From positions 1 to 22,052 of IMG/VR virus record IMGVR_UViG_3300028837_000559: DNA of 22,052 bases. One strand, given 5' to 3'. Numbering within the stretch: the first letter of the stretch is position 1; every line of letters begins with the position of its first letter. Positions 1 through 21,320 of this stretch are shown here, one piece after another. Source of the stretch: a virus. Both the position numbers and the translations under genes were made by a program. A model generated the notes under the pieces. That model had not been told where the DNA came from, ran no database searches, and worked only from the letters and a program-made list of their open reading frames with translations.

Positions 1-566
1 TGTTCTTCCGACCTCCCATCAGTACGACCGCGAATAGGGTGGGAAAGGTAGGCGGTAATTTTTTTGGGGGATTCTGCGGGGGTGCATTTTATGTTGAAAG
101 GAGGAAAACCTAAAAATGAAGGAAGGGGAAATCCGATTCCAAATTTTTGTTGTCGCAGCATTGCCGCTTCCCGGGGGTCGTGTGGAAGATTTTGTGGGTT
201 TGATTTTTTGTATTTTGGCAGATCATCCAATTCTTCTGGAAGTATTCCCCGGTTTACCATTTCCCTCGTATGTAGAAATGCCGCGAGGTTCCAAAAAGCT
301 GCTACAATATGAGGTTCATCCCGTTGTCCGTCTCGATATTTATTGATATGCCGCAACGCAGAATCTAAAAATTGACTTAAAGGCATCCCTTTTTCCCAAT
401 TACGAGCGTCATATTTCAATGCTCCTGCTTCAAAATGTTTTGCTAACAATTCAAGAGCAACTGGAGGAATAAGATCAAATCGCCCCTTTCCCGTTTCCGC
501 ATCCCGAACCGCACCAGAATCGAAATTACGTCGAGTTCCACTATCTTTTATGTTTGGTTGATCCAT
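1..566 (-). CDS. dATP/dGTP diphosphohydrolase-like protein with a C-terminal deoxyribosyltransferase-like start (partial)
   Basis: The gene runs off the left edge; 188 codons are visible from the ATG at 566. Residues about 17-115 (SGAVRDAETGKGRFDLIPP, then KYDARNWEKG, LRHINKYRDG, HIVAAFWNLAAFLHT) match, from memory, the phage domain first called DUF5664 and later the dATP/dGTP diphosphohydrolase N-terminal domain, a nucleotide-pool enzyme. After a Pro-rich linker, residues 169-181 (KITAYLSHPIRGR) look like the first strand and phosphate loop of nucleoside 2-deoxyribosyltransferase or DUF4406 proteins. The ATG shares one base with the stop of the upstream gene (TAATG), so translation is probably coupled. 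The first domain is a fairly sure call; the second rests on about 20 residues. Confidence 0.78.
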   Translation of the reverse strand, partial: MDQPNIKDSGTRRNFDSGAVRDAETGKGRFDLIPPVALELLAKHFEAGALKYDARNWEKGMPLSQFLDSALRHINKYRDGQRDEPHIVAAFWNLAAFLHTREMVNRGILPEELDDLPKYKKSNPQNLPHDPREAAMLRQQKFGIGFPLPSFLGFPPFNIKCTPAESPKKITAYLSHPIRGRTDGRSEE

Positions 567-829
567 TAGTAAACGTCTCCATTTTCTTGTATTTTTTCAT
601 CTTCATATTCTGCTACTACTCGTCTGTAAAATTCTTGTTTTACACATTCAAGTATGCCGACTACTTCATTTAATTCTGTGTATGAAACATTTTGTAAAAA
701 AGCAAGGCTAATTTGAGTTATAATATAATTTAATTCTCCCGCAGATAACGGGTCCATATACATTTTATCTTTAAAGGACTGAATTAACGATTCTAATTTT
801 ACCCGCTGCTCATGTTTTATATAAGGCAT
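566..829 (-). CDS. Small conserved phage protein (DUF6899-like)
   Basis: This 87-residue protein begins MPYIKHEQR and has the block GELNYIITQISLAF, then NEVVGILECVKQEFYRRVV and the acidic end YEDEKIQENGDVY. I recall this pattern from a widespread small phage and metagenome family catalogued as DUF6899; the function is unknown. It lies between two genes with almost no spacing: its stop shares a base with the next ATG, and its own start is 6 nt after the upstream stop without a clear ribosome site, which suggests coupled translation. The family name comes from memory and was not searched. Confidence 0.8.
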   Translation of the reverse strand: MPYIKHEQRVKLESLIQSFKDKMYMDPLSAGELNYIITQISLAFLQNVSYTELNEVVGILECVKQEFYRRVVAEYEDEKIQENGDVY

Positions 830-1093: not shown

Positions 1094-1105
1094 AGTTTTC
1101 TCCTT

Positions 1106-1199
1106 ATTCGAACCTGCAATCTTCATCGGACTTCAACTCACTATTCAGATATTGCCTATTCCGTATGTAGCGTCTCGTTTTCCAATTCCGCCACGAGGC
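1106..1199 (-). ncRNA. tRNA-Leu-like 5' leader of the 836-1093 gene
   Basis: Read on the minus strand, the 94 nt starting at 1199 begin GCCTCGTGGCGGAATTGG, which contains the 13-nt D-arm signature GTGGCGGAATTGG of class II leucine tRNAs, and end GCAGGTTCGAAT (1117-1106), a T-arm 5' strand plus T-loop. The expected 3' half of the T-stem (CCTGC) and the acceptor 3' strand are absent: AAGGAG, the ribosome site of the next gene, follows at once. The first base lies 8 nt after the -10 box, about where transcription should begin. It is either a truncated tRNA gene or a tRNA-mimicking leader. An alternative hairpin, CTCGT with ACGAG, could form at the 5' end. Confidence 0.45.
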
Positions 1200-1206
1200 T
1201 AATACA

Positions 1207-1234
1207 ATTATACCATATTTTGAGCCATTGTCAA
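1207..1234 (-). promoter_or_regulatory. Leftward sigma-70 promoter
   Basis: On the minus strand there is a perfect -35 box TTGACA (1234-1229), a 16-bp spacer and a perfect -10 box TATAAT (1212-1207). It is placed to transcribe the tRNA-like leader and the three genes at 1-1093. Confidence 0.88.
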
Positions 1235-5194: not shown

Positions 5195-5725
5195 CTATTC
5201 TTCTGCACAGTATTCACATAAATACCGCCCATTCACTTCTTTGAATGCCCCATCATAGTATTCCCCACATTTATCACAGCAAGTATGGCAATCGGGACAT
5301 ATGATTGAATTAGCTTGAATTTCCGTTCCACCAGCCCCCCGAAAATCCTCCAGGTAAATATCATCGGGATCAGTTAGCTCATCCCCACACTTATTGCATA
5401 AAGCGTACGGCCACTTGGGAAATAGCTCTGCATCGTTAAACTGATCGAACCACTTTACTAATCCAGATACCAAACCGCTATTGATTTCAGTGGCAATGTC
5501 TTTTAATCCCTTTTCAGTATCGAGATTGTAAATATAATAATCACAGTCCGCGGCATATTGTGGGTCCGATAAATAAATATCAGCATCTACAGCATTAGTA
5601 ACTCCATTCCTCCCACTAGAGAATACGTTGTGGAAGTTCCCGTTTACATCATAAGCGAAAAAATTCCATTCCCAAAAACATCCTTCATACCCGCCTCCGC
5701 TATACTGTACTAGCACATTTTTCAT
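5195..5725 (-). CDS. Phage protein with two C-terminal zinc-binding modules
   Basis: A 176-residue protein. The first 90 residues start MKNVLVQYSGGGYEGCFWEW and look like a globular alpha/beta domain that I recall as a conserved phage N-terminus (QYSGGGYDGCFWEWN). Residues about 109-175 hold CNKC, CPDC, CDKC and CEYC pairs spaced as two treble-clef or LIM-like zinc modules. A role in binding protein or nucleic acid is an inference. AAGGAG precedes the ATG at 5725. It is the largest complete gene of the leftward array and is not preceded by a visible promoter. Confidence 0.8.
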   Translation of the reverse strand: MKNVLVQYSGGGYEGCFWEWNFFAYDVNGNFHNVFSSGRNGVTNAVDADIYLSDPQYAADCDYYIYNLDTEKGLKDIATEINSGLVSGLVKWFDQFNDAELFPKWPYALCNKCGDELTDPDDIYLEDFRGAGGTEIQANSIICPDCHTCCDKCGEYYDGAFKEVNGRYLCEYCAEE

Positions 5726-6681: not shown

Positions 6682-6765
6682 TTATTTTCCTTTATAATAG
6701 TATGCAATCAACACCAAAACGGCTGTCTGCATAATCCCGAACACTATTGCCAATATAATACTCAT
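6682..6765 (-). CDS. 27-residue membrane microprotein
   Basis: MSIILAIVFGIMQTAVLVLI then AYYYKGK: a single hydrophobic helix ending in an aromatic and basic tail. The ATG overlaps the TGA of the leaderless upstream gene by four bases, so it is probably translated by re-initiation. Its last codons hold the ribosome site of the next gene. The function is unknown. Confidence 0.58.
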   Translation of the reverse strand: MSIILAIVFGIMQTAVLVLIAYYYKGK

Positions 6766-6884
6766 TCATTACTTTCGTAACATTTACATTCTTCACCAGA
6801 TTCTAACACCGTATCACATTCTGGATTAGTACAACAACAACAAGGCCAAATCCGCGTATCTTTCGTTTTTTGTATATCATCCAT
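6762..6884 (-). CDS. Cysteine-rich 40-residue protein, predicted leaderless mRNA
   Basis: MDDIQKTKDTRIWPCCCCTN then PECDTVLESGEECKCYESNE. Seven cysteines in 22 residues, including CCCC, suggest a small metal-binding or disulphide-rich peptide. It is the first gene of the leftward array. The ATG lies only 6 nt after a consensus -10 box, so the mRNA should start at or next to the A of ATG, with no room for a ribosome site. No family is recognised. Confidence 0.68.
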   Translation of the reverse strand: MDDIQKTKDTRIWPCCCCTNPECDTVLESGEECKCYESNE

Positions 6885-6890
6885 ACTATT

Positions 6891-6918
6891 ATTATATCAT
6901 ATGCAGGATATTTGTCAA
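6891..6918 (-). promoter_or_regulatory. Leftward sigma-70 promoter of the early array
   Basis: The minus strand has TTGACA (6918-6913), a 16-bp spacer and TATAAT (6896-6891), then 6 nt to the ATG at 6884. It is the head of the leftward array and is predicted to give a leaderless transcript. Confidence 0.88.
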
Positions 6919-7285
6919 GTAAAAAGTGAATATAATTTGTATATTTTGTGTATATTTTATTTCGATAACCGTCACGCTCGCGAACGTCTGATAATACTAT
7001 GGCGTATTGTAGATACAGCTTGTCGATTATTATCGGACTATAAGAGTATGGTATATGCGGCGAATATATAGAGCATATATCATATAGGTACGTGGCGTGT
7101 GACGCAGGAGAAAAGGGAGACGGCGATCAAAACATTATCGGACGTAGCGGAGGCAGATGACGCGGGAATCACATTATCGGACCCGGAGGGGGTACCTTGT
7201 CGATAGAGGGTTATGGGACGCCCGGACGCGTAAATCGTCAACTCAAAGGGAACCAAATAATTTTTTGACCATAACCATTTTTTAT
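6919..7285. other. Divergent, gene-free control region; candidate replication origin
   Basis: No convincing gene lies here. Next to the leftward promoter is an AT-rich block (about 6921-6962). Further on are a hairpin AATAC/GTATT, TATATGC (7052-7058) pairing with GCATATA (7073-7079) across a 14-nt loop, and a GC-rich island. By hand count, 83 of 140 bases in 7091-7230 are G or C. TTATCGGAC occurs three times in one direction (7030, 7135, 7174); the last two sit in a near-repeat, ATC(AAA)ACATTATCGGAC, 39 nt apart. The mix of iteron-like repeats and an AT-rich block would suit an origin or a divergent operator. This is inference. Confidence 0.5.
7233..7259 (+). repeat. GGAACCAAATA repeat, copy 1
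   Basis: AAATCGTCAACTCAAAGGG followed by AACCAAATA, matching copy 2 (GTCAAC, TCAA, GGAACCAAATA) with small gaps. It lies just upstream of the promoter at 7286. Confidence 0.7.
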
Positions 7286-7313
7286 TTGACTTTCGTGAAT
7301 TCTGTGGTACACT
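7286..7313 (+). promoter_or_regulatory. Rightward promoter 1 (TTGACT type)
   Basis: TTGACT (7286-7291), 16-bp spacer, TACACT (7308-7313), then 6 nt to ATG at 7320. The -10 box is the weakest of the four related promoters. Confidence 0.72.
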
Positions 7314-7319
7314 TGTATT

Positions 7320-7484
7320 ATGGATACACCAAATAATCAGTATCAGCCGACGAATCGAGAGAAGGTGCGGAAACCGAAACGAGGATTATTTTGGTGTTGG
7401 GGGTGTGATATGCAGAGAGTGGGGGAATGGGGAAAATGTTCGGTTTGTAGAACGAGGAATAATAGAAAGCGAAGGAAGAAATAG
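7320..7484 (+). CDS. Basic zinc-ribbon protein, predicted leaderless mRNA
   Basis: A 54-residue protein: MDTPNNQYQPTNREKVRKPK, then CWGC (26-29) and CSVC (40-43), and a strongly basic tail (RTRNNRKRRKK). The four cysteines form a classic zinc-ribbon spacing and the tail could bind nucleic acid, so a small regulator is plausible but unproven. No ribosome site is present; the ATG lies 6 nt after the -10 box. It is the first gene of the rightward half of the genome. The ATG is the only sensible start, since the upstream frame covers the promoter. Confidence 0.72.
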   Translation: MDTPNNQYQPTNREKVRKPKRGLFWCWGCDMQRVGEWGKCSVCRTRNNRKRRKK

Positions 7485-7511
7485 TCAACCCTCAATGGAA
7501 CCAAATATTTT
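7480..7511 (+). repeat. GGAACCAAATA repeat, copy 2
   Basis: It contains GTCAACCCTCAATGGAACC followed by AAATATTTT. The 18-nt string AATGGAACCAAATATTTT (7494-7511) is identical to copy 3. It starts inside the end of the zinc-ribbon gene. Confidence 0.8.
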
Positions 7512-7572
7512 GTGGCTATTAAAACCCTTTTTGTGATCCATAACGATCTTTGTGGATATTCTGTGATCCACT

Positions 7573-7590
7573 AATGGAACCAAATATTTT
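7573..7590 (+). repeat. GGAACCAAATA repeat, copy 3
   Basis: AATGGAACCAAATATTTT is identical to 7494-7511. Just before it lie TGTGATCCA twice (7532-7540 and 7562-7570) and an inverted pair GTGGAT/ATCCAC (about 7552-7571). These look like operator-type elements upstream of the promoter at 7615. The start regions of the methyltransferase gene (AATGGAACCCGATATTT) and of the 8303 gene (AATGGAACCAAC) are close variants. Confidence 0.8.
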
Positions 7591-7614
7591 TTTATTGTTT
7601 TTACCATTTCGTCC

Positions 7615-7643
7615 TTGACTTCTACTGGTTTGTATGTTATACT
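7615..7643 (+). promoter_or_regulatory. Rightward promoter 2 (TTGACT type)
   Basis: TTGACT (7615-7620), 17-bp spacer, TATACT (7638-7643), then 7 nt to the ATG at 7651. It drives the methyltransferase-like gene. Confidence 0.85.
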
Positions 7644-7650
7644 TATGGTA

Positions 7651-8259
7651 ATGGAACCCGATATTTCAAATAGGATTATTTTAGATTTGTGTGGGGGAAC
7701 TGGAGCGTGGTCTAGGCCATATAAAGAGACGGGATATAAGGTGAAGGTTATTACCTGGCCGCTGTGGGATGTAAGATTGTGGCCGTCGAGAAGGAGTATG
7801 GAGGACCGGAAGTCAAAGGAGTTGAAATCGGTCGAAGAATATATTGGAAAGGTGCATGGAATTTTAGCCGCTCCCGTTTGTACGGTTTTTTCTAATGCGG
7901 GAGCGAAGTATCCGAGAACAGATGAAGAATTGATAGAAGCATTGTCATTGGTTGATGCTTGTTATCGAATTGCAAATGTATTACAGCCGCATTTTTTCTG
8001 TATGGAAAATCCAGTGGGGAAGTTGCGAAAATGGTATGGTCCACCCGCCATGTCTTTTCAACCATGCGATTATGGCGATCCATATACGAAGCGAACGTTG
8101 TTGTGGGGGTGGTTTAATCGTCCGATAATGAATCAAGTAGAACCGACAGAAGGTAGTAAGATGTGGAAAAACTATGGAGGAAAAAGTTCATATACAAAAC
8201 AGCAGCGAAGTATTACTCCTTCCGGTTTTGCAAAAGCATTTTTTGAAGCGAATCAGTAA
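7651..8259 (+). CDS. DNA (cytosine-5) methyltransferase-like protein
   Basis: A 202-residue protein with the main marks of C5-cytosine methyltransferases: motif I DLCGGTGAW (12-20, S-adenosylmethionine binding), motif IV AAPVCTVFS (73-81, with the candidate catalytic Cys77), motif VI ENPVGKL (119-125), a YGDPYTKRTLLWG block (141-153) that resembles the Arg-containing motif, and a C-terminal ITPSGFAKAF. Compared with the usual PPC, the second proline is valine, and the protein is short with almost no target-recognition domain. Similar compact proteins are common in phages and may methylate phage DNA against host restriction. The frame is open back to 7615, but that is the -35 box, so the ATG at 7651 is the start, 7 nt after the -10 box with no ribosome site. 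Confidence 0.82.
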   Translation: MEPDISNRIILDLCGGTGAWSRPYKETGYKVKVITWPLWDVRLWPSRRSMEDRKSKELKSVEEYIGKVHGILAAPVCTVFSNAGAKYPRTDEELIEALSLVDACYRIANVLQPHFFCMENPVGKLRKWYGPPAMSFQPCDYGDPYTKRTLLWGWFNRPIMNQVEPTEGSKMWKNYGGKSSYTKQQRSITPSGFAKAFFEANQ

Positions 8260-8267
8260 TTTTTTCC

Positions 8268-8295
8268 TTGACTTCTGCTGAATTTGTGGTATAAT
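8268..8295 (+). promoter_or_regulatory. Rightward promoter 3 (TTGACT type)
   Basis: TTGACT (8268-8273), 16-bp spacer, TATAAT (8290-8295), then 7 nt to ATG at 8303. It lies 8 nt after the methyltransferase stop. Confidence 0.88.
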
Positions 8296-8302
8296 TATAG
8301 TA

Positions 8303-8454
8303 ATGGAACCAACAATATATTATGTGAAAAGGATTGGCAGCCTTTGGGGGGAATAGCTACTTGTGAACGAGAACGATCAAGTGAACTTCCGTTTTCAACT
8401 GCAAGGTATTACGACAGCGAATTTTTACAGGTGATGGTAAAATATGAGGATTAA
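8303..8454 (+). pseudogene. Small gene split between two frames at a G6 run
   Basis: The ATG at 8303, at the expected transcription start, opens only 17 codons (MEPTIYYVKRIGSLWGE, TAG at 8354-8356). The -1 frame is open across the same region and reads on as protein-like sequence (GGIATCERERSSELPFSTAR, YYDSEFLQVMVKYED) to a TAA at 8452-8454, with GAGGAT of the next gene just before the stop. It has no ATG of its own after the promoter. A -1 shift in the run of six G (8346-8351) would join both parts into about 50 residues. This could be a real frameshift mutation, an assembly error or programmed slippage. The 17-codon peptide may instead be a leader peptide. Confidence 0.5.
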
Positions 8455-8457
8455 GAA

Positions 8458-8787
8458 ATGGAACTCAAAAAATACTTTTGGCAATGGTTAGGATTATTTT
8501 TGATTGCCGCAGCGTATGGCTTTGGCGTGGGACCATATTTTATAGTGTCATTTATACTGTTGGGAATTGTGGGGATTATAGATGCTTATGTGCTGATTGT
8601 TGAGAGATACTCTATTAGCCGCAAAATTCATAAGCAATTTAAATGGCAATGGGATTTTGCTATACTGGGGGGGTTGTTAGCACACGCAACATGGCATTTT
8701 TGGGGAAAAGACGTAGTGTGGGGTCAGATGGTATTGTTTATTTGGTTATTTGCAATATGGGGGCATTTTTTTTGGTCAAAGGATTAG
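8458..8787 (+). CDS. Integral membrane protein, about four helices
   Basis: A 109-residue Trp-rich protein. Hydrophobic segments lie at about 8-27 (WQWLGLFLIAAAYGFGVG), 28-48 (YFIVSFILLGIVGIIDAYVL), 66-82 and 88-106 (QMVLFIWLFAIWGHFFW), with a basic loop between the second and third (SRKIHKQFK). GAGGAT lies before the ATG. Size and topology would allow a holin, but no endolysin is visible nearby, so the role is open. Confidence 0.75.
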   Translation: MELKKYFWQWLGLFLIAAAYGFGVGPYFIVSFILLGIVGIIDAYVLIVERYSISRKIHKQFKWQWDFAILGGLLAHATWHFWGKDVVWGQMVLFIWLFAIWGHFFWSKD

Positions 8788-8790
8788 ACA

Positions 8791-9018
8791 ATGTTTAAAA
8801 CAAAGTTTAAAGCGGGGTTAATAGCTCAAGTATTTCTAAAAGCAGAACAACAACAGATTCCAAAACCAGATGTGCAGTTAGTGGAAATTTTTGTTGATAT
8901 GTTAGAAAAAGAAATTCATCGACCACGATTAGCATATGCTACTATGAATCAGTTGATTTGGGAGATACAAAGCCGGATGCAAAAACATAATCTTGCAGAT
9001 AAAAGGGGGGATGAGTAA
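8791..9018 (+). CDS. Hypothetical 75-residue helical protein
   Basis: MFKTKFKAGLIAQVFLKAEQ, then two further helices (DVQLVEIFVDMLEKEI and YATMNQLIWEIQSRMQK). AAAGGAT in the end of the previous gene is its ribosome site, and its stop shares a base with the next ATG (TAATG). No family is recognised. Confidence 0.72.
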   Translation: MFKTKFKAGLIAQVFLKAEQQQIPKPDVQLVEIFVDMLEKEIHRPRLAYATMNQLIWEIQSRMQKHNLADKRGDE

Positions 9019-9191
9019 TGGGACCAGAAAAAAGAACTTCACAATCATATAACCTTTCTCCTCCGCGTCAATTGAGAATAAATATCACAAAACAAATAGG
9101 CCGAAATTCTCCTTGTTATTGCGGAAGCGGTCGCAAGTTCAAAAAATGTTGCATGAAGGCGGTGGAGAAATCAGAATATGAATCCCGCTAA
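9018..9191 (+). CDS. SEC-C motif protein
   Basis: A 57-residue protein whose second half, IGRNSPCYCGSGRKFKKCC (27-45), is a textbook SEC-C zinc motif (CxCGSGxKxKxCC), best known from the SecA C-terminus, where it binds zinc and SecB or ribosomes, and from many unrelated proteins. The first 26 residues are basic and polar and probably flexible. The ATG overlaps the previous stop (TAATG); the end overlaps the next gene by 14 bases. Its phage role is unknown; an adaptor or partner-binding peptide is a guess. Confidence 0.85.
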   Translation: MGPEKRTSQSYNLSPPRQLRINITKQIGRNSPCYCGSGRKFKKCCMKAVEKSEYESR

Positions 9192-9444
9192 TCCTGTTTT
9201 AACAGAATCAGAAAAAATTCTCAATGGATTAATTATCCTTTGCGTGAACGGGTATCATTGTACGAGGGCAGGGTCGGGTTATATTGTATCCGGGGGTCCG
9301 GTGATGAAGGAAGCACATTTAGTTCTTGAAAGTCTTGGATGGTTTTTCGATCAAATTCGCGGAAGATGGGAATTTCCCGTATTTCCTTCAGACCCGCCAG
9401 GTGAAAAAAGAAATGCGGGACCGGGGAGTGGAGAACCAGTATGA
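9178..9444 (+). CDS. Hypothetical 88-residue protein
   Basis: MNPANPVLTESEKILNGLII, then GYHCTRAGSGYIVSGGPVMK and EAHLVLESLGWFFDQIRGRW. It looks like a compact alpha/beta domain followed by a Gly- and Pro-rich tail (SDPPGEKRNAGPGSGEPV). GGAGAAATCAGAAT precedes the ATG inside the SEC-C gene. The stop overlaps the next ATG. No family is recognised. Confidence 0.7.
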   Translation: MNPANPVLTESEKILNGLIILCVNGYHCTRAGSGYIVSGGPVMKEAHLVLESLGWFFDQIRGRWEFPVFPSDPPGEKRNAGPGSGEPV

Positions 9445-9707
9445 AAATTGAAGCCTACGTTTGTGACAAGTGCATGGATCAGATCGAAGTTAGTTGTTGT
9501 CTCCGTGTTCCCTTTTCCCCGCAATTAACAATATATCGGGGGGTGGGGTTGGCCGGGAGTGAATCAATTCCCGTTACAACACAATATTGCCACAGGATCG
9601 AAGATGTAGATAATGTGACTTTATGCCCGGAGTGTGCGGGTTTAACAACAAAGGAATTTGTAGAAACCAATTGGGAAGGAGTTCAGGAATACTTGGCAGG
9701 ATTATAA
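9441..9707 (+). CDS. Zinc-ribbon-like protein
   Basis: An 88-residue protein with CDKC at 8-11 and CPEC at about 62-65, a probable four-cysteine zinc site around a beta-rich core (LTIYRGVGLAGSESIPVTTQ), then a helix (TKEFVETNWEGVQEYLAGL). Such single-domain zinc ribbons are common in phage accessory regions. It starts by ATGA overlap with the previous gene. The function is unknown. Confidence 0.75.
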   Translation: MKIEAYVCDKCMDQIEVSCCLRVPFSPQLTIYRGVGLAGSESIPVTTQYCHRIEDVDNVTLCPECAGLTTKEFVETNWEGVQEYLAGL

Positions 9708-9802
9708 TGGTTATAGTAATTACTCTGAAAAATATTACTGCTTTATCTGTGATATTTGGGGGAATTTACTTGACTCTTGAACAATCCGTGATATACTTGT
9801 AA
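9707..9802 (+). CDS. 31-residue membrane microprotein over a promoter
   Basis: MVIVITLKNITALSVIFGGI then YLTLEQSVIYL: one hydrophobic helix. The ATG shares a base with the previous stop (TAATG). The last third of the frame covers the promoter at 9770-9797 and the TAA lies in its start region, so the frame could be a chance extension of the promoter DNA; it is reported with modest confidence. Confidence 0.45.
   Translation: MVIVITLKNITALSVIFGGIYLTLEQSVIYL
9770..9797 (+). promoter_or_regulatory. Rightward promoter 4 (TTGACT type)
   Basis: TTGACT (9770-9775), 16-bp spacer, TATACT (9792-9797), then 6 nt to ATG at 9804. It is placed to drive the protease-to-capsid operon. Confidence 0.82.
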
Positions 9803-9803
9803 T

Positions 9804-9869
9804 ATGGACAATAAAGGATCGAACGTATGCGATCAAATGAGCCGTCAATGGCTCATCTTAAATCTTTGA
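9804..9869 (+). promoter_or_regulatory. Leader peptide with two hairpins before the protease gene
   Basis: The ATG at the expected transcription start opens 21 codons (MDNKGSNVCDQMSRQWLILN then L, TGA at 9867-9869). The same RNA can fold as GATCG/CGATC (9817-9821 with 9830-9834) and a perfect 7-bp stem ATGAGCC/GGCTCAT (9837-9843 with 9850-9856, 6-nt loop), without a long U-run after it. The 105-nt stretch up to the protease start at 9909 holds nothing else. It may be a leader peptide with attenuation, or a structured leader that protects the mRNA. Confidence 0.5.
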
Positions 9870-9908
9870 AAATTAAGGGTTTATGATAAGCTATTGCAGG
9901 AGATTGAT

Positions 9909-10610
9909 ATGAAGCTACCAAAAGTATCAAAAACAACGAAAATAGGGATTTTATTTGCTATTCTTATAGGGATAATTTTACCTTCCGCAATTTTTATATA
10001 TCAAATACGTATGGATATTCCTATTCAGGAAATCACTGTAAAACCGTCAATTTCTGATAGTATTGTAAAGATCGAATCAGAATACGGCCAGGGATCGGGA
10101 GTTATAGTTGAACGGTCTGATGAGTATATAACGATTTTAACGGCTGCTCATGTTTTAGCTGATCCGGGTTTTGGGTTGACTTTTACAGTTACAGCGGATA
10201 ATGGGTGGTCTGCGGAGATTCTAACAGATTCGATCTATGTGGACACCGCTGTTGATTTGGGGGTATGCAGAGTACCTATTGATGAGAGTTTTACTCTCTC
10301 CGCTGTCCCTATGGGGCAAGGAATTGATTTTGGGGATGCGGTTACAGTAGTTGGATACGGGTTATTTGGTGAAAAGATAACTACTCGTTGCTACATTGCA
10401 GTTCCTCCGACAAAGGGAGAATTGATCCTGGACGGAACTGTTAATCCGGGTAATTCCGGTTGTCCGGTTCTTAACGATAATGATGAAATTGTGGGTATCG
10501 TTGTTGCGAAGATAATCGGTGGGGGATTTGAAGGTATAGGAATTACTCATTCCGTGGATATATGTAAGAATGTGCTTGAACGATACAAGATTCTCAGAGG
10601 GTTAAAATAA
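9909..10610 (+). CDS. Membrane-anchored trypsin-like (S1C, HtrA-type) serine protease
   Basis: A 233-residue protein. Residues 12-32 form a hydrophobic anchor (IGILFAILIGIILPSAIFIY). The protease domain carries the triad in usual order: His81 in LTAAHVL, Asp116 in AVDLGV, and Ser183 in PGNSGCP, preceded by GQGSGVIV, which is typical of HtrA and DegP relatives. There is no PDZ domain; the protein ends soon after the second barrel. The domain should face the periplasm or outside if the anchor is a signal anchor. AGGAG lies 7 nt before the ATG at 9909. The next gene starts within its stop (TAATG). Roles in processing virion or host envelope proteins are possible but not shown. Confidence 0.88.
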   Translation: MKLPKVSKTTKIGILFAILIGIILPSAIFIYQIRMDIPIQEITVKPSISDSIVKIESEYGQGSGVIVERSDEYITILTAAHVLADPGFGLTFTVTADNGWSAEILTDSIYVDTAVDLGVCRVPIDESFTLSAVPMGQGIDFGDAVTVVGYGLFGEKITTRCYIAVPPTKGELILDGTVNPGNSGCPVLNDNDEIVGIVVAKIIGGGFEGIGITHSVDICKNVLERYKILRGLK

Positions 10611-10867
10611 TGAGTAAAGTAAAAACGTGGTATCAAAAACTTCGTAATAAACTTCGTCCGATGGATGAAAGAACAAAGAAATTTCATCAAGAATTAGCAG
10701 ATCAAGCCTTTACTGAAGGCTATACAAGGGGCCACAAAACGGGGGTTGCTGTGGGGTTTGAAGAAGGTAAAATGGCAGGGATCGACATTGGAAATGAATT
10801 AGGGTACGAATCAGGATACCAGGACGGGCGAGTGGATATGGCTCAATATATGCAAAAAGAAGCATGA
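10610..10867 (+). CDS. Glycine-periodic protein (Yae1-like repeat)
   Basis: An 85-residue protein with a basic start (SKVKTWYQKLRNKLRP) and a middle with glycine every four residues (TEGYTRGHKTGVAVGFEEGK, MAGIDIGNELGYESGYQDGR). The pattern resembles the repeated GxxxG sequence of Yae1-type and FliH-type helices, which pack tightly against another helix. It may form a helical dimer or bind a partner. It begins in the protease stop (TAATG), so the two are probably translated together. Confidence 0.72.
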   Translation: MSKVKTWYQKLRNKLRPMDERTKKFHQELADQAFTEGYTRGHKTGVAVGFEEGKMAGIDIGNELGYESGYQDGRVDMAQYMQKEA

Positions 10868-10882
10868 GAGTACATTTAAAAT

Positions 10883-11167
10883 ATGAAAATACAAACTCAT
10901 GTATTTTGTGGACAAAAATATACGATCTGTTTTCACGAAGATTATCACGGATCGTGTGATGTTACTCCGGTAGATAGAAAGCGTTGGGAAATGTTTATTT
11001 TGGCAAAACGTCAAAATACCCGATCATATTTAGATACTGTAATACATGAAGCGATTCACGCTTGCGGATTAAAAAATGAAACTAAAGTAACACAAATGGC
11101 AAAGGATATTTCTCGGTTCCTTTGGAGAATAGGTTTCCGGTTAAAAAATGTCTCGTCCGAAGAATAA
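10883..11167 (+). CDS. Putative zinc metallopeptidase (HExxH)
   Basis: A 94-residue protein with VIHEAIHACG (54-62); His55, Glu56 and His59 form the HExxH zinc site, and Glu66 in KNETKV is a candidate third ligand. The end (ISRFLWRIGFRL) matches what I recall of a small phage family annotated as putative metallopeptidase, in which the domain resembles SprT or ImmA proteases in miniature. The start has only a weak ribosome site, and the frame overlaps the next gene by 20 bases. Whether it has activity or only a structural zinc site cannot be read from sequence. Confidence 0.78.
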   Translation: MKIQTHVFCGQKYTICFHEDYHGSCDVTPVDRKRWEMFILAKRQNTRSYLDTVIHEAIHACGLKNETKVTQMAKDISRFLWRIGFRLKNVSSEE

Positions 11168-11618
11168 TTTTAATTTTCGCTTTGTGATAGACTCAAGAGA
11201 GCAAAAACCGTATCATTTTAAAGAGGATGATATACGGAAGAAGTTAGATACCGGGGATTATTCGATTGAAGAATTAGAAGATTGTATTTGTGTCGAACGA
11301 AAAGAAATCAATGATTTTATTGCTTCTGTTCTTCCGGGTCGGGGTTGGAAACGGTTTCAAAAAGAACTTAAACGGTTACAGGAGTTTGAATTAGCCTGTA
11401 TTATTGTAGAGGCCACTTGGTTTGATATTTGTGAAGGGCATTATCGAAGTGAATTACATCCGAATTCTTTAAAGGGGTTTGTGATGCGGGTTTTAGTAGA
11501 TTATGGAATTCCCATTTATTTTGTATCAAACCGAGCTTATGGAAAAGTATTTGTTGAAAAATGGCTGCAACGAGCAGCTTTAAAATTTCATCCCGTATTA
11601 GTAGGAGAAAACGAATGA
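11148..11618 (+). CDS. ERCC4-type (XPF-family) nuclease
   Basis: A 156-residue single-domain protein with the signature of the ERCC4 nuclease fold: VIDSREQ (13-19, Asp15), LDTGDYS (33-39, Asp37) and CVERKEINDF (48-58, Glu50-Arg51-Lys52). The DSRE, GDY and ERK residues are the metal-binding catalytic set of XPF and Mus81, which cut branched or flap DNA. There is no helix-hairpin-helix tail and no helicase. In this position it may resolve replication or recombination junctions before packaging. The start overlaps the HExxH gene by 20 bases and the stop overlaps the next ATG. Confidence 0.9.
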   Translation: MSRPKNNFNFRFVIDSREQKPYHFKEDDIRKKLDTGDYSIEELEDCICVERKEINDFIASVLPGRGWKRFQKELKRLQEFELACIIVEATWFDICEGHYRSELHPNSLKGFVMRVLVDYGIPIYFVSNRAYGKVFVEKWLQRAALKFHPVLVGENE

Positions 11619-11983
11619 AGGTCGAACCTTTTGGTGGACGAGTATTATTAAAGAAAGATAAACCGAGAACGAGAACAAAAGGTGGAATTCATCTTCCGTC
11701 CGCAGGTAGTCAAGTAGGAGGTATTTCACGGGGTACTATTGTGGAAATTGGAGCCGGTGGACAGAATACCGATGGTGTAACTATTCCGATGCGGGTTAAA
11801 GTCGGGGATCGAGTATTGTTTATTCCCGATTTTGGTAACTCTCAGTTGAAAATTGCAGAGGAAGAACATTATATTTTACCAGAAGACGGAATACTTGCTA
11901 TACTTTCAAATGAAAGTGAAGATGAGTTAGGGGAAGTGTTAGAAGTTGAATCGGTAAAAGTACCGAGGATTTTAAAACATTAA
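11615..11983 (+). CDS. GroES-like co-chaperonin (Cpn10 family)
   Basis: A 122-residue protein that follows Cpn10 from end to end: KVEPFGGRVLLKK, the mobile-loop tripeptide region KGGIHLPS, then RGTIVEIGAGG, VKVGDRVLFIPDFGN and LPEDGILAIL. In GroES the loop reads GGIVL; here it reads GGIHL, so the residues that touch GroEL are mostly kept. About 25 charged C-terminal residues are extra. Phage T4 gp31 and related proteins replace host GroES so that the capsid protein can fold in GroEL, and a like role is likely here since the head genes lie downstream. GGAG precedes the ATG at 11615, which is better than earlier in-frame starts inside the nuclease gene. Confidence 0.92.
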   Translation: MKVEPFGGRVLLKKDKPRTRTKGGIHLPSAGSQVGGISRGTIVEIGAGGQNTDGVTIPMRVKVGDRVLFIPDFGNSQLKIAEEEHYILPEDGILAILSNESEDELGEVLEVESVKVPRILKH

Positions 11984-11994
11984 AAGGATAAAAA

Positions 11995-12354
11995 ATGGAA
12001 ACGTATTTGTCAGATAATAAAGGCCATAGAATTTCAGCCGATCCATATATGGTGCATCCGGTATTAGCAAGCGGTATTAAAGTAACTTTAACAAATGCCG
12101 ATGCAAATTATACTCAGACATTATTAGCCGGAGCAACTTATAGAATTATATGCCATAAGACTGCTGCTGCTTCCCATGACGTTGTATTTGCAAGTGTTAC
12201 CGGAACCGCCGTTACTGATGCAAATAAAGAATGGTCTTTTCCGCTTGGTCAAAATGGGCTTATTACTATGCCAAAAGATAAGACTACATTGAATCTTGCT
12301 TCGACTTTGGCGGCGGTAGAAGTTTATTTGGTTCAATTGGATATGACAATCTAA
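11995..12354 (+). CDS. Hypothetical beta-rich protein, possible virion component
   Basis: A 119-residue protein rich in Ala, Thr and Val with alternating strand-like segments (GIKVTLTNADANYTQTLLAG, then HDVVFASVTGTAVTDANKEW). It has no charged helices and looks like a jelly-roll or other beta sandwich, as in head decoration or fibre proteins. AAAGGAT precedes the ATG. The stop shares a base with the next ATG. No family is recognised. Confidence 0.7.
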   Translation: METYLSDNKGHRISADPYMVHPVLASGIKVTLTNADANYTQTLLAGATYRIICHKTAAASHDVVFASVTGTAVTDANKEWSFPLGQNGLITMPKDKTTLNLASTLAAVEVYLVQLDMTI

Positions 12355-12659
12355 TGACCTTTACAGAATTAATTCAACAAGTTGCGGAAGAACGAAATGA
12401 AAAGGGTTCTCTTGATACAAACCAAGAGAGACTTGTTCGTGATCTGTGGAAATTAGCTATCGGTTGGACAGATAAAATTGTGAAGCCGGGGGAGATTGTA
12501 CAAACGTACCATCCTCCAGTTAAATGGGCGGCTCAATTGGTGGTGGAGTTAGTGCAAACCGATGGATCGGAAGATCAAGATAAAGCCACGCATGAGTTAT
12601 TAAAGGATTTGAAGAAACTGGTGGAAGCGAATAAGTTGAATGATGAGTTTTTAGAGTAA
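12354..12659 (+). CDS. Hypothetical helical protein just before the terminase
   Basis: A 101-residue helical protein (MTFTELIQQVAEERNEKGSL, DTNQERLVRDLWKLAIGWTD, then HPPVKWAAQLVVELVQTDG). Its place directly upstream of the large terminase subunit is where many phages keep the small subunit, but no helix-turn-helix is obvious, so that identity is only a possibility. It begins by TAATG coupling. Confidence 0.68.
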   Translation: MTFTELIQQVAEERNEKGSLDTNQERLVRDLWKLAIGWTDKIVKPGEIVQTYHPPVKWAAQLVVELVQTDGSEDQDKATHELLKDLKKLVEANKLNDEFLE

Positions 12660-12693
12660 ATTTTTTTATCTCGAAAATGTAGTTATAGGACGT

Positions 12694-14634
12694 ATGACAT
12701 TTTTAGCAACACAACCTGTTTTATCTGAACCGTTTCCCGATGTACCAGAAATATGGAAATGTCCGGTTACTGGATTAAAAGTTCCAAAGGCTTTTGATAA
12801 GAATTTAGAATACCGGAAAAGAATATTGGAACGAGCAGAAAAAGACAACGGGTTGCAAAAAGAATTATTGTCCGCTTGCACTCTTTCACGCCTTTATTGG
12901 TTGAATACTTTTGGATGGACATTCTCTCCGCATTTATTTATTAACGGAGAAAAACGCCCGAATCCTTATCCGCATCAGCCATTTATCTCTTGGGATATTC
13001 AGGATTTTGCATTTAATGAACTAGGGGATGCGATTGATAATGGAAAATCTTTGGGAATTGATAAGAGTCGGCAAATGGGAGTATCGTGGTTAATTATTGC
13101 GGTACTTTCGCATTTATGGCTCTTTTACCCCGATCAGAAAATTGCAGAATTAAGTCGTATTGAAGATTTTGTAGATATGCCGGGGGAGGATAAATGTTTA
13201 TTTTGGAAACATGATTATATTCATACCCGCCTTCCGCAATGGATGTGTCCGCCTGCGTGTTTACCGGGCCAAAAGAATCGGGTGAGTATGCGGATTTCAA
13301 ATGTGTGGAATGGAAGTTTGATTTCTGGAGAAGCGACTACAAAAAATGCTGCAAGGGGTGGAACAAAATCGGTAGTGTTTACCGATGAATTCGGAGCTTG
13401 TGAAAATGGGGATGCGATGATTCGGGCTTTAGGAGAAGCGGCTTGTTGCTGGTTAGTAAATAGTACACCGGTAGCCGGGTCCGCTTATTCTCGATTAGTA
13501 CAATCGGGAAAGATCAAGTTTATTAAAGTTCCTTGGTGGGAACATCCGGGTAAAGGAAAAAATCGATATATTCAATATAATGAAGTTATTCAAAAGTGGG
13601 AAATTCGATCTCCTTGGTACGATAAAGAAGAAGAAGAACATGATCGAGCATATATGGCTGAAACACATGACATGGATCATCTGTTAGCCGGTCAAACCTT
13701 TTTTGATAACCAAATCTTTGAACAGCATAAACTTAAATTTGGGCGTCCGCCACAAACGACTTATGAGGTAAAATTTAAAGAGGGCATTGCAAACGACCAA
13801 ATTCCTAAGTTATTGTCAATGCGAACTGCAAATGAAATTGAAGCAACCTCGGATCGAAAAGGAAAATTGAGTCTTTGGTGTAATCTCACCGAAGATCGAA
13901 ACGAAAAATTTCGACCGGATCAGTCAGTTGAATATACATTTGGTATTGATATTAGTAAAGGACAGGGAGCTAGTAATTCAGTGGTTGCTGTTTATAATTC
14001 CGATACAGGGAAAAAAGTAGGAGAGTGGGTTGATTGTAATACTCCCGCTTACCGATTTGCTCGACTTACTGTAGCCCTTGCTCTTTGGTTTGGTGGACGT
14101 AATCCACGACAACTTCCTTTAATCATTTGGGATGCAAATGGCGATCCAGGAATTGAATTTCGGGATGTGTTGATTTCAGAATTGCATTATCCTTTTTATT
14201 ATAAAGATGAAACGTTGGGGCAGGAAACCACGAAGAAAAAGAAAACTCTAGGTTTTCATGCGGATCGAACGAAAAAAGTAGCTTTATTGAGTTATTATCA
14301 AAGTTGTATTGCTAACGAAACGATTGAAAATTACAACGTGCTTTCACTTGATGAGACTAAAACTTTTATTAAGTTTAATGATGGAAGTGTTGGTCCGGCT
14401 CAATTCGCAGCAGAAAAAGGTGGAGCTAGATTAGCTCACGGGGATCGAACTTCTGCTGATGCTCTTGCTACTTGGGGGATGAAATCGAAATCAAGAAGAA
14501 GAACAAATCCTGGTGGACAAGCTCCCGTGAATAGTTGGCAAGGTCGATTTAATCAACACGCTAAAATAAAAAAAGAACGACAAAGCGATTTGACTTCTTA
14601 TCAATGGAATAGGAGACTGCAAGGTGTCAGATAA
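12694..14634 (+). CDS. terL: Terminase large subunit (packaging ATPase and nuclease)
   Basis: A 646-residue protein that pumps DNA into the prohead and cuts it. The ATPase half has a Walker A variant KSRQMGVSW (124-132), a Walker B strand VVFTDE (227-232) and the NAARGGTKS stretch (218-226) before it. The nuclease half has three acidic centres in RNase H-like order: Asp419 in GIDISKG, Asp480 in IIWDANGD, and Asp584 or Asp589 in HGDRTSADALA. The length fits the family. The ATG follows TTATAGGACGT, a copy of the dispersed TTATMGGAC motif that also serves as a weak ribosome site. The last 11 bases overlap the portal gene. Confidence 0.95.
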   Translation: MTFLATQPVLSEPFPDVPEIWKCPVTGLKVPKAFDKNLEYRKRILERAEKDNGLQKELLSACTLSRLYWLNTFGWTFSPHLFINGEKRPNPYPHQPFISWDIQDFAFNELGDAIDNGKSLGIDKSRQMGVSWLIIAVLSHLWLFYPDQKIAELSRIEDFVDMPGEDKCLFWKHDYIHTRLPQWMCPPACLPGQKNRVSMRISNVWNGSLISGEATTKNAARGGTKSVVFTDEFGACENGDAMIRALGEAACCWLVNSTPVAGSAYSRLVQSGKIKFIKVPWWEHPGKGKNRYIQYNEVIQKWEIRSPWYDKEEEEHDRAYMAETHDMDHLLAGQTFFDNQIFEQHKLKFGRPPQTTYEVKFKEGIANDQIPKLLSMRTANEIEATSDRKGKLSLWCNLTEDRNEKFRPDQSVEYTFGIDISKGQGASNSVVAVYNSDTGKKVGEWVDCNTPAYRFARLTVALALWFGGRNPRQLPLIIWDANGDPGIEFRDVLISELHYPFYYKDETLGQETTKKKKTLGFHADRTKKVALLSYYQSCIANETIENYNVLSLDETKTFIKFNDGSVGPAQFAAEKGGARLAHGDRTSADALATWGMKSKSRRRTNPGGQAPVNSWQGRFNQHAKIKKERQSDLTSYQWNRRLQGVR

Positions 14635-16360
14635 GAAAATTAGTCCTGCGGCACTACAAGATGCGATTGAATCTTCTGGAAATAGGCTTCGAGCTTTTCG
14701 ACAAGCCCGTGCATTATTTGTTAAAGAATATGTCGGACAGTATTATATGAATATCCCGGAATATCAGGGACAGAAACCTTTGAATCTTATTCATTCCGCT
14801 CTCCGGGCTATTATTCCGAATATTGTAATGAAGAACCCCCAATTTCATATTTCTACAGAAAATACTGAACTATGGAATCGAGCCGATTCTTTAACTTCAG
14901 ATGTTAATTCAGCAATTCAACAAATGCACTTTAGCGATACTATCCGGGCTACGATGGTCGATGCCTTTTTTGGTTTTGGGGTATTTCACACAGCATTACA
15001 TGCAACCGATACATTTTTAACAGTTAATGATATGCGGCTCGATCCAGGGCGTATTATGACTGAACGGATTGATCTCGACGACCTAATTTTTGATCCGACG
15101 TCGACTCGTTTTCTTTTTACGGACGGAGCATTTTTAGGACACTTCACCCGCGTACCCCGACAACGACTATTAGATAAAGACGGATATGAACATGATATTT
15201 TGAAACAAATTCCAAATGCTTCTGAGCAACGGATGAAACAGAATTTAGTTTCAGATATATCAAAAGTTCGACAGCATGGGTGGGAATTTTCGGAACTTCG
15301 GGATTTGATTGATGTCGCTTGTTTGTACTTTCCGAAACAACAAGCGGTTATGTTGCTTCCCGACCCGAAAGCCGTTCGATCTGATAAACCTATTTTTATG
15401 ACAGATTATCATGGACCGGATGGTGGGCCATACGATTTCTTAACATTTAGCCAACCCGTTCCGAATAACCCGTTTCCCGTTGCTCCGGTTAGTCTTTGGT
15501 ATGACATGCACAATTGCGCAAATGATATATTTCGTAAGGCGATGTCTCAGGCATTACGGCAAAAAGATGGAATGGTTTATAACCCGCTTCATGCGGATAC
15601 AGCACAGGATGTTGTAGATTCTAAAGATGGGTTTACGGTAGCCGGTGATCCGTCGGGTCTTAAAGAATTTTCTATCGGAGGCCAAAATCCCAAAAATATG
15701 GAATTTACCGGGGCTTGTCAAACCTGGTTTAATTATTTAGCCGGAAATCCTGAAATGTTAGCGGGGTTACAAACCCAACAAGAAACTGCTACAGCAGCCC
15801 AAATTCAATCTGGTCAAGCGAATATTTCAATTCAAGATTCTACTTTTCTAACTGAACAAAGCGTTGAAAGTATTGGTTATAAAATTGCATGGCATCTTAT
15901 TGATGATCCGCTTAATATTGAATATTCTAAAACCGATTGGTTAGAATTTATGTTTGAATTGGTGGCTCGATCAATGATTAAACTTGATCCGCAAATTCGA
16001 GCAAGACGAATTCAAGAATTTTTTGCAAATGTAATTCCACAAATTGCTAATGCAACTATGATGTTTACACAGATGGGAATTCCATTTAATGTTCAAGAAG
16101 CAATGATTTCTGTAGCAGAATCTTTAGGAATCGAAAATGAAATTGCCCGGATTTTGAATGATCCGTATATTACACAGAAAATGCAAAATGCAATGGCGAT
16201 GGGACCAGCAAAAGCTAGTAAGGCTACAGGAACAACGAATATGTCGGGTGGCGGGGTAGCGGCTCCCGGAGCCTCTAGTCCCATGACCGTTCCTACCGCC
16301 CCCCAAGAACAAAACCAAATAGCTCAACAGGCATCGGGGCAAGTTGGATTCGGAGGATAA
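14624..16360 (+). CDS. Portal protein
   Basis: A 578-residue protein whose place after the large terminase subunit and before the scaffold, and whose content, fit a portal, the ring through which DNA passes. The N-terminal part (QARALFVKEYVGQYYMNIPE, then NLIHSALRAIIPNIVMKNP) is the usual start of podovirus-like portals, and the C-terminal 60 residues are a flexible Gly-, Ala- and Gln-rich tail. The start is GTG at 14624, with AGGAG 8 nt upstream, and overlaps the terminase end by 11 bases. Confidence 0.9.
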   Translation: MSDKKISPAALQDAIESSGNRLRAFRQARALFVKEYVGQYYMNIPEYQGQKPLNLIHSALRAIIPNIVMKNPQFHISTENTELWNRADSLTSDVNSAIQQMHFSDTIRATMVDAFFGFGVFHTALHATDTFLTVNDMRLDPGRIMTERIDLDDLIFDPTSTRFLFTDGAFLGHFTRVPRQRLLDKDGYEHDILKQIPNASEQRMKQNLVSDISKVRQHGWEFSELRDLIDVACLYFPKQQAVMLLPDPKAVRSDKPIFMTDYHGPDGGPYDFLTFSQPVPNNPFPVAPVSLWYDMHNCANDIFRKAMSQALRQKDGMVYNPLHADTAQDVVDSKDGFTVAGDPSGLKEFSIGGQNPKNMEFTGACQTWFNYLAGNPEMLAGLQTQQETATAAQIQSGQANISIQDSTFLTEQSVESIGYKIAWHLIDDPLNIEYSKTDWLEFMFELVARSMIKLDPQIRARRIQEFFANVIPQIANATMMFTQMGIPFNVQEAMISVAESLGIENEIARILNDPYITQKMQNAMAMGPAKASKATGTTNMSGGGVAAPGASSPMTVPTAPQEQNQIAQQASGQVGFGG

Positions 16361-16361
16361 T

Positions 16362-16742
16362 ATGCCGATTTATTCTTTTAAATGTAAAACTTGTGGACGA
16401 ACATTGGATAGTTATCGGACTATGGCGGATTCTGATAAAGAGTGTACTTGTGAATGTGGGGCACTTATGATCCGCGATTTTCAAAACGGAAAACCCCATG
16501 TTACTCCCGAACGATATTCTCATGCGATTGTGAGTGATGCCCTGGGAATTCACCCCGATCAAACAGCGGAACATCAAGCGGTTTATCCAAATATCCCGGT
16601 TACTCCAACCGGACAATTAGTTTTTGAAAGTTACAAAGAACACGAGAACTATTTAAAAGAAAATGGGTTTCAATTTAAACCCCGTAAAAGAAAAATAAGG
16701 GGAACAGTTACTAAAGTTTCTGAAATGTCAACCCCGCGTTAA
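16362..16742 (+). CDS. FmdB-like zinc-ribbon protein
   Basis: A 126-residue protein beginning MPIYSFKCKTCGRTLDSYRT, the typical start of FmdB-type zinc ribbons, with CKTC (8-11) and CTCECG (28-33) as zinc ligands. After the first 50 residues it is basic, with a Pro-rich middle and tail (FKPRKRKIRGTVTKV). GGAGG precedes the ATG at 16362, 2 nt after the portal stop; an earlier in-frame start inside the portal gene lacks such a site. Small zinc-ribbon genes at this site between portal and scaffold occur in other phages; their function is not known. Confidence 0.82.
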   Translation: MPIYSFKCKTCGRTLDSYRTMADSDKECTCECGALMIRDFQNGKPHVTPERYSHAIVSDALGIHPDQTAEHQAVYPNIPVTPTGQLVFESYKEHENYLKENGFQFKPRKRKIRGTVTKVSEMSTPR

Positions 16743-16754
16743 AAGGAGAAAATT

Positions 16755-17876
16755 ATGCCAGAAGAAGTGCAACAAACTGAAACAGTACAAGAAGGAGTTG
16801 AAGGAGAAACTCTCGGAACTCCCTCGGATACTGTTGTTGATGAACAAAAGGTTACAGATGCGTTGAAATCGAAGGTTCCTGGATTTTTTAATACCGAGGT
16901 AGAAGCTCTTATTGAAGGATCGGAAGTTGATGAATCAAACGGAGAATCTACCCCTGCCGAAGAATCGGGCCAAGTCGAATCACAAACTGTAACAGAAAAT
17001 ACTAACCAAGCAAAAGAAACAGAAACGAAACCGGAAGAAGGTGAAAAAGAAACCAAAAATAAAACCGAAATACCAGAAGCTCATGCACGGGCATTAGAGC
17101 ATGTTGGATGGAAACCAGAGGATATTCAAAAGCTACATGAAGCTGATCCAACTTTGTTACAAGATACGGCAAAACGAGCTTATGATGCCGATCAACGATC
17201 TAATCAATTGTATCGACAAGCTGGACAGAATTTGTTGGGGGGTACAACAGATACTTCACAACAGGAAACTACATCTGAACAGAAAGTTGTCGATGTTGCA
17301 AAACTTCGAGAACAATATACCGATGCAGACGGAGAAGTTTCTGATACTGTTAAGCCGCTTCTTGATGCGGTGGAAGCAATGTCACAACAGGTTCAACAGT
17401 TATCTACCGGACAACAGCAAATTGTTCAACAGGTAACAGCAAAGCAACAAGCAGAGCAAGAACAAACGACTAAGGAACTTCGGCAGGAATTAGATCAATT
17501 TTTGGGGGGGGTGCAATCTACAGGATATAAAGAATTTTATGGTGATTCTTGGGATTCTGCTGCCCCCACACAGATACAAAATCGGATAACTCTATCTCGT
17601 GAAGCTGGAATTGTTAGTGCTGGTATGTACGCCTATGGAGACGATATAACTTATCCAGAAGCTCTTAGTCGTGCTCATTCTCTTTTGGTAGCTCCTTTGG
17701 TTGAAAGAAAAATAATTGATGGTATAAAAGGAACTTTACAAAAACGAAGTAACAATTTAGTTTTGGATGTTGCATCTACGCAGCAGAGCCAGTCTGATAA
17801 AGCGGGTAAAAAATCATCCCCGACAGGAAGCCCGGCTAAAGTTGCGGAAGTAATGCGAAAAATAGGTTTGACATAA
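16755..17876 (+). CDS. Scaffolding protein
   Basis: A 373-residue highly acidic protein, Glu-, Gln- and Thr-rich at the start (residues 1-100), with a helical core at about 102-150 (HARALEHVGWKPEDIQKLHE) and long Gln-rich coiled-coil stretches (AMSQQVQQLSTGQQQIVQQV), ending in a basic segment (DKAGKKSSPTGSPAKVAEVM, then RKIGLT). Charge, coiled coil, basic C-terminus and the place between portal and capsid gene fit a scaffold that directs prohead assembly, as in P22, where the basic C-terminus binds coat protein. AAGGAGAAAATT precedes the ATG. A run of eight G (17504-17511) lies within the gene. Confidence 0.85.
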   Translation: MPEEVQQTETVQEGVEGETLGTPSDTVVDEQKVTDALKSKVPGFFNTEVEALIEGSEVDESNGESTPAEESGQVESQTVTENTNQAKETETKPEEGEKETKNKTEIPEAHARALEHVGWKPEDIQKLHEADPTLLQDTAKRAYDADQRSNQLYRQAGQNLLGGTTDTSQQETTSEQKVVDVAKLREQYTDADGEVSDTVKPLLDAVEAMSQQVQQLSTGQQQIVQQVTAKQQAEQEQTTKELRQELDQFLGGVQSTGYKEFYGDSWDSAAPTQIQNRITLSREAGIVSAGMYAYGDDITYPEALSRAHSLLVAPLVERKIIDGIKGTLQKRSNNLVLDVASTQQSQSDKAGKKSSPTGSPAKVAEVMRKIGLT

Positions 17877-17900
17877 CATAAAGATAAGTGAGGTTAAATT

Positions 17901-19019: not shown

Positions 19020-19080
19020 TCGTATTTGTTTGTAGTATATAAATAAAATAAACAAAAATCAAAATAACAGGAGTTAAATA

Positions 19081-20214: not shown

Positions 20215-20227
20215 ATTATAGTTTTTA

Positions 20228-20292
20228 GGTCCGCCTACGCTTCTTTTAATGCGGGAGCGTAGGTGGGACCATTTTTATTTTCCCGCATTAAA
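20228..20292 (+). terminator. Terminator-like hairpin with possible pseudoknot
   Basis: The stem is GGTCC-g-CCTACGC (20228-20240) with GCGTAGG-t-GGGACC (20257-20270), followed by ATTTTTATTTT (20271-20281): a rho-independent terminator shape. Its 16-nt loop contains TTTAATGCGGGA (20245-20256), a perfect 12-nt complement of TCCCGCATTAAA (20281-20292), which lies immediately before the next gene's ribosome site AGGAG. Both pairings can exist together as an H-type pseudoknot. Confidence 0.82.
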
Positions 20293-20304
20293 TAGGAGAT
20301 TATT

Positions 20305-20697: not shown

Positions 20698-20699
20698 TA

Positions 20700-20846
20700 A
20701 TGCCAGTTGGATCGAAGGTACATGATATTTATAAAGCCCTTCGGAAAAAAGGTATGAGCAAAGAACGAGCAGCAAAAATTTCTCAAGCTGTATCGGGACA
20801 GGCTCTTGCAACTGGACGATCCCCTAAACATAAAAGGAATAAATAA
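20700..20846 (+). CDS. Conserved 48-residue phage protein
   Basis: MPVGSKVHDIYKALRKKGMS, KERAAKISQAVSGQALATGR, SPKHKRNK. I recall this layout (MPxGSKV, a helix, KxxAxxISQxxTGQxLxTGxxPK) as a small basic protein found in the late regions of many phages; its function is unknown, with DNA or RNA contact likely from charge. It starts 2 nt after the previous stop and ends by TAATG overlap with the next gene. Confidence 0.76.
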   Translation: MPVGSKVHDIYKALRKKGMSKERAAKISQAVSGQALATGRSPKHKRNK

Positions 20847-21301
20847 TGGCGGCTCCGACTTCTGCAATGACAACTGCTGATTTAGTATTAGTAGTTGCGA
20901 AATTATTAGGTATAGCGTGGTATGGTCTTGATGGTCAAAATTCTGCATTAGTACCCATACAACGAGTTCATCTTGAAGATTGTTTGGGAATTGTAAACGA
21001 CGGAATTCGTCGGTTTATCCAATATGGTCCGAAAGAAGGATGGCGATGGCGAAAACGAAAAACAACCGTCACCTTTAATACCACCGGAGCCGGTGCAATT
21101 CGTCAAGCATGCCGTGCTGAAGCAGCGGCTCAATATGAAGATATTCCGCGTACTTATTTAGATGAATTTTTTAATCTTGTACTTCCACAAGCTCATGTGT
21201 TAGATGGGCAAGCGGCTCCTCGTTCTGTAGGATCATTGAATGATGTGATTCCGTTTTTCTGGACTCGACGAGCCAGTGATACACTTGTTAATAATGAATA
21301 A
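20846..21301 (+). CDS. Probable head-tail connector (adaptor) protein
   Basis: A 151-residue protein with CLGIVNDGIRRFIQYG and GWRWRKRKTTVTF in the middle. Similar pieces (a helix ending NDGxRRF followed by a Trp-rich WxW turn) are what I recall from head-tail adaptor proteins that sit under the portal. The first 20 residues hold a hydrophobic helix (TADLVLVVAKLLGIAW). It is also consistent with the position after coat genes. AAAAGGAATAAATA is the ribosome site. The C-terminal half is otherwise unrecognised. Confidence 0.6.
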   Translation: MAAPTSAMTTADLVLVVAKLLGIAWYGLDGQNSALVPIQRVHLEDCLGIVNDGIRRFIQYGPKEGWRWRKRKTTVTFNTTGAGAIRQACRAEAAAQYEDIPRTYLDEFFNLVLPQAHVLDGQAAPRSVGSLNDVIPFFWTRRASDTLVNNE

Positions 21302-21320
21302 TCTTAAAGGAGATTAAATA

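Follow-up and report, generated by a model that had tools for sequence, protein, structure and literature searches.

Start codons at the predicted transcription start of strong promoters in a probable phage genome fragment

The window, meaning the whole analyzed stretch of 22,052 bases, is a viral record (IMGVR_UViG_3300028837_000559) with a G+C content of 39% and is probably a fragment of a phage genome. Profile matches identified genes for TerL, a weakly SU10-like portal and GroES, and the capsid protein was identified via its position and its relatives. Genes run leftward to the left of about 6.9 kb and rightward to the right of 7.3 kb. At this divergence and further to the right lie five promoters that share one layout:

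6891..6918, minus strand: promoter TTGACA-16-TATAAT, TG before the -10, ATG 6 nt downstream (motif scan)
7286..7313, plus strand: promoter TTGACT-16-TACACT, ATG 6 nt downstream (motif scan)
7615..7643, plus strand: promoter TTGACT-17-TATACT, ATG 7 nt downstream (motif scan, repeat comparison)
8268..8295, plus strand: promoter TTGACT-16-TATAAT, duplicate of the 7615 site, ATG 7 nt downstream
9770..9797, plus strand: promoter TTGACT-16-TATACT, ATG 6 nt downstream, identical in contig L005

The four rightward sites had been listed in a first-pass annotation. All of them, at 7286, 7615, 8268 and 9770, match TTGACT-N16/17-TAYAMT-N6/7-ATG exactly, and this pattern was found 0 times in 100 dinucleotide shuffles. 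A search with the looser TTGACW-N16-18-TANNNT-N6/7-ATG returned exactly five sites in the window, with 0.08 expected. The fifth, overlooked before, is TTGACA-16-TATAAT-AATAGT-ATG at 6918..6882(-). Since this site is leftward, the pattern occurs on both strands, and its promoter and the one at 7286 point away from each other, with the intergenic region between them. In 5/5 sites a TG lies one base ahead of the -10 box (extended -10), and in all of them the -10 box ends 6-7 nt before the start codon, as in TANNNT-led leaderless genes. With sigma70, an ATG 6 nt after the -10 box has its A at the expected +1, and with 7 nt the A is at +1 or +2. Two near-consensus promoters of the window are exceptions: at 4874(-) the ATGs lie at +3 and +16, and 1234(-) stands ahead of an SD-led gene with a leader.

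Downstream of the promoters the following features were found:

6762..6884, minus strand: predicted leaderless 40-codon Cys-rich ORF (MDDIQKTKDTRIWPCCCC...), without SD (motif, ORF)
7320..7484, plus strand: predicted leaderless 54-codon ORF, CxxC...CxxC, zinc-ribbon-like, without SD (ORF)
7651..8259, plus strand: predicted leaderless DNA methyltransferase gene, 202 codons, without SD (phrog_757, E=8e-44)
8303..8356, plus strand: 17-codon ORF across the 8327 junction, in another frame than the L005 ORF (L005 comparison)
9804..9869, plus strand: predicted leaderless 21-codon mini-ORF ahead of an SD-led protease gene
9846..9896, plus strand: hairpin, z -2.8, with the mini-ORF stop codon at the loop side

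The phrog_757 profile aligns from residue 6 of the methyltransferase, thus the ATG at 7651 is well placed as a start. The 40-codon ORF had no match in Pfam, and profile searches gave no family match for the 54-codon ORF. Two of the four ATGs listed initially had been said to open clear proteins. This is correct for 7320 and 7651 only; the ORFs that begin at 8303 and 9804 have 17 and 21 codons. Likewise, to call each ORF the first gene of its unit is apt for 7320 and 7651, and also for 6884(-), which had been missed. It does not fit 8303 and 9804, which are short ORFs before SD-led genes.

Pairing with the anti-SD was about -5 to -11 kcal/mol for most window genes, and -1.1 kcal/mol or weaker at the five starts. 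The earlier statement that these ATGs have no ribosome site in a genome whose other genes have strong ones was therefore borne out: SD is absent at the five starts and present at most other genes.

The 7615 and 8268 sites are homologous copies, with 86-88% over the boxes (repeat families D5 and D7). As duplicates, they reduce the four rightward sites to about three independent cases. A AATGGAACCAAATATTTT-like stretch occurs in five copies, at 7245, 7493, 7572, 7649 and 8301. Two of these are at the predicted leaderless starts, and the other three have no promoter ahead. From these repeats, it looks as if a promoter-and-start cassette was duplicated and then partly lost. The L005 contig is 100% identical to the window from 8327 to 22052, except for a 596-base insertion at 21096. 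This insertion (L005 12912-13509) lies inside gene 20846..21301 and is a second structural difference between the contigs. Upstream of 8327 L005 differs and carries an intact 69-codon ORF that runs on into the common sequence. Because of this difference, the 8303 ORF is a probable stump, and a deletion probably removed the leaderless gene that once stood there. An assembly artefact in place of a deletion is possible, if rather doubtful: L005 holds just 142 bases past the junction, at its contig end, but its 69-codon ORF is uninterrupted across the junction and is broken in the window version.

The 5'-uAUG layout was found at 9804: the AUG at the predicted +1 would be 5'-terminal, and its short ORF is followed by an SD-led gene. 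The gene behind it has a Trypsin_2 match, and its SD (9898-9902) starts right after the other arm of the hairpin. The 9804 ORF is probably a mini-ORF at the very 5' end, ahead of the SD-led protease, and its translation may aid that of the protease by opening the hairpin. E. coli mRNAs of this kind, in which an SD-led gene follows a short ORF whose AUG is 5'-terminal, have been described and were tested by lacZ fusions and toeprints (PMC4965119), whereas the 9804 case is predicted from sequence. In the related contig L129, a 7-codon predicted leaderless ORF overlaps the start of the following gene, whose SD lies inside this short ORF, an arrangement that resembles an engineered leaderless bicistronic design (PMC10367133).

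Relatives were traced via structural proteins or a left-arm gene. For the region from 6.9 to 8.3 kb, the methyltransferase returned no close relatives and TerL returned only L005 and L006, and L006 ends short of the region. Since no close relative spans 6.9-8.3 kb, the three best genes (7320, 7651 and 6884) are without direct comparison. Capsid similarity led to contig NZ_JAAEQH010000323, which belongs to a Neptuniibacter-labelled MAG and whose TerL, portal and MCP are 44%, 37% and 53% identical to those of the window. In its upstream region, 3/3 strong promoters, on both strands, have an ATG at 6 or 7 nt. Three further promoters with an ATG at 6 or 7 nt lie on another contig of this bin, 19.5 kb long, which also encodes homologs of window 566..829(-), GroES and SEC-C motif. 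As the two contigs together have about 50 kb, like several portal-family contigs, they are probably one genome, although the 19.5-kb contig was spotted via the motif itself. The rest of the bin gave 12 matches versus 11 for the shifted control. Because the remaining contigs show no excess, the layout belongs to the phage, and the idea that the MAG uses leaderless starts throughout was rejected. L211, found via window gene 5195..5725(-), has the layout at 2/3 strong promoters; at the third, ATA replaces ATG and an SD-led gene follows.

Over 87 family loci, taken mostly from a portal profile search, ATG offsets peaked at 6 (11 loci) and 7 (5 loci), versus about 3 per offset elsewhere. Pooling the window with L128, L129 and L211 gave an ATG at 12/17 strong promoters with about 4% expected per site, a figure that is biased upward by the window's own five sites, which had been selected in the first reading. 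The -10-to-ATG spacing is kept in L128, L129 and L211 and in the family histogram, while the spacer sequences differ among sites. It is not kept in all relatives, and in the distant relatives L007, L008 and L115 the promoter-ATG pattern is absent.

We also searched viral contigs more widely. As controls the ATG(GA) was shifted; a reversed-pattern control was not relied on, since promoter content is lost in it. Searches for the extended motif found 97 viral contigs with ATGGA at +6 nt, versus 6 with ATGGA moved 5 nt, and in these 6 the ATGGA lies mostly within an SD site or a short leader. The 97 contigs group into 21 ORF families, 13 of which have at least 50 codons, compared with 1.5% of ATGGA in shuffled sequence. 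The largest family is a conserved, uncharacterized 68-aa protein with the motif ahead in 49 marine-type viral contigs (within L010-L106). The 7-nt variant was rejected as a wider signature, being present in one other contig only, with the ATGGA in an SD site.

In the Methylophilales phages MEP401/402 the 68-aa gene sits between the portal and scaffold genes. The same motif precedes it there, in phages of a proteobacterial host, so a leaderless start is no sign of Deinococcus or Actinobacteria, and the host clue originally drawn from it is unsupported. MCP relatives were found only in MAGs labelled Neptuniibacter and Planctomycetia. Similarity searches for a host gave no DNA match among phages, no MCP match and only distant TerL matches. 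In the Planctomycetia MAG (G007), the pattern at 5-8 nt occurs 39 times versus 25 in the shifted control, a mild excess.

The prediction of leaderless mRNAs is in line with the promoter-ATG geometry, the lack of SD and the spacing kept in relatives. The promoters would be of sigma70 type, with a near-consensus -35 and an extended -10 box so near to the gene that RNA would start on the A of the ATG or one base before it. Host RNA polymerase would then make mRNAs without a 5' leader, and by analogy with E. coli their 5'-terminal AUG may be bound directly by 70S ribosomes. The promoter-proximal genes at 7320, 7651 and 6884(-), each the first ORF of its unit, are probably read from such predicted mRNAs, with the genes further down being SD-led. 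For this explanation as a whole, with promoters that set the ATG at +1, leaderless first ORFs, the deletion at 8303 and a role for the 9804 mini-ORF, we estimate a probability of about 0.78.

Alternatively, ATG at +1 could be a preferred initial transcribed sequence of copied cassettes and no start codon, and the next SD-led gene would be the true first gene. The promoter copies in the window and the short ORFs before SD-led genes at 8303 and 9804 would agree with this, as would short ORFs in relatives (7 codons in L129, 9 codons in L128) and in several of the 97 motif contigs. However, the ATGs at 7320, 7651 and 6884(-) are the only starts available to their genes, and the 13 families of at least 50 codons are not short ORFs. 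Furthermore, the L211 copy before an SD-led gene carries ATA, so the promoter itself needs no ATG triplet. We therefore regard this alternative as unlikely. That RNA starts further upstream at unrecognised promoters, giving SD-less genes with leaders and making the boxes incidental, is very improbable: weak promoter matches are many in this AT-rich DNA (66 found versus 63 expected), but the window sites are far above the chance background (0 to 0.08 expected) and their spacing is preserved although spacer sequences differ.

Predicted leaderless expression from +1-ATG promoters, the reading we prefer, has known counterparts. Leaderless genes led by a -10 box have been described across bacteria (Zheng et al. 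2011, PMC3160421). In these, as in the window, the -10 box lies some 12 bp ahead of the start codon and there is no SD; those genes are chromosomal, whereas the window is from a phage with other genes strongly SD-led. Leaderless mRNAs were predicted from PL1, PR2 and PL2 of cluster O mycobacteriophages (Corndog and others; PMC4351075). There, as in the window, promoters (sigma-A in cluster O) are divergent and the predicted +1 coincides with the first nucleotide of the start codon. The cluster O host, however, is a high-G+C actinobacterium with many leaderless genes, and no sequence relation to the window is shown. Transcripts without a leader, as predicted for the window, are also made by Thermus phage phiYS40 (reviewed in PMC3594737). 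These belong to the middle and late classes, in a host with an abundance of leaderless genes, while the window probably has sigma70 host-type promoters.

With its promoter-ATG layout, this so far unstudied phage lineage adds a clear and conserved example of the already known leaderless mechanism. We tentatively suggest that an environmental, otherwise SD-led phage lineage systematically lets the start codon coincide with +1 at the strongest of its host-type promoters, which would make promoter-proximal genes leaderless, and that at some promoters a mini-ORF opens the next SD (leaderless bicistronic). Where gene callers depend on SD, starts of this kind may be overlooked or misplaced; those of the 40- and 54-codon ORFs are examples. 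If confirmed, leaderless phage expression would be extended beyond the usual leaderless hosts to a lineage rich in SD sites, and TTGACW-N16/17-TATAMT-N6/7-ATG would be a simple motif for promoter-proximal phage genes in metagenomes.

Some further elements were observed in the window. The 1234(-) promoter is perfect (TTGACA-16-TATAAT; window 1100-1234, minus strand), and the leader behind it, ahead of the SD-led gene, contains a lookalike of a tRNA-Leu 5'-half (GCCTCGTGGCGGAATTGG...). Neither ARAGORN nor Rfam found a tRNA at 1100-1234(-), and Rfam gave no match at gathering score on the window. The divergent intergenic region (7132-7182) holds two copies of ACATTATCGGAC at a distance of 39 bases, and related copies lie close to 7029 and 8119. 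Directly upstream of the 7615 promoter, GTGGAT/ATCCAC inverted repeats at 7535-7580 may form an operator.
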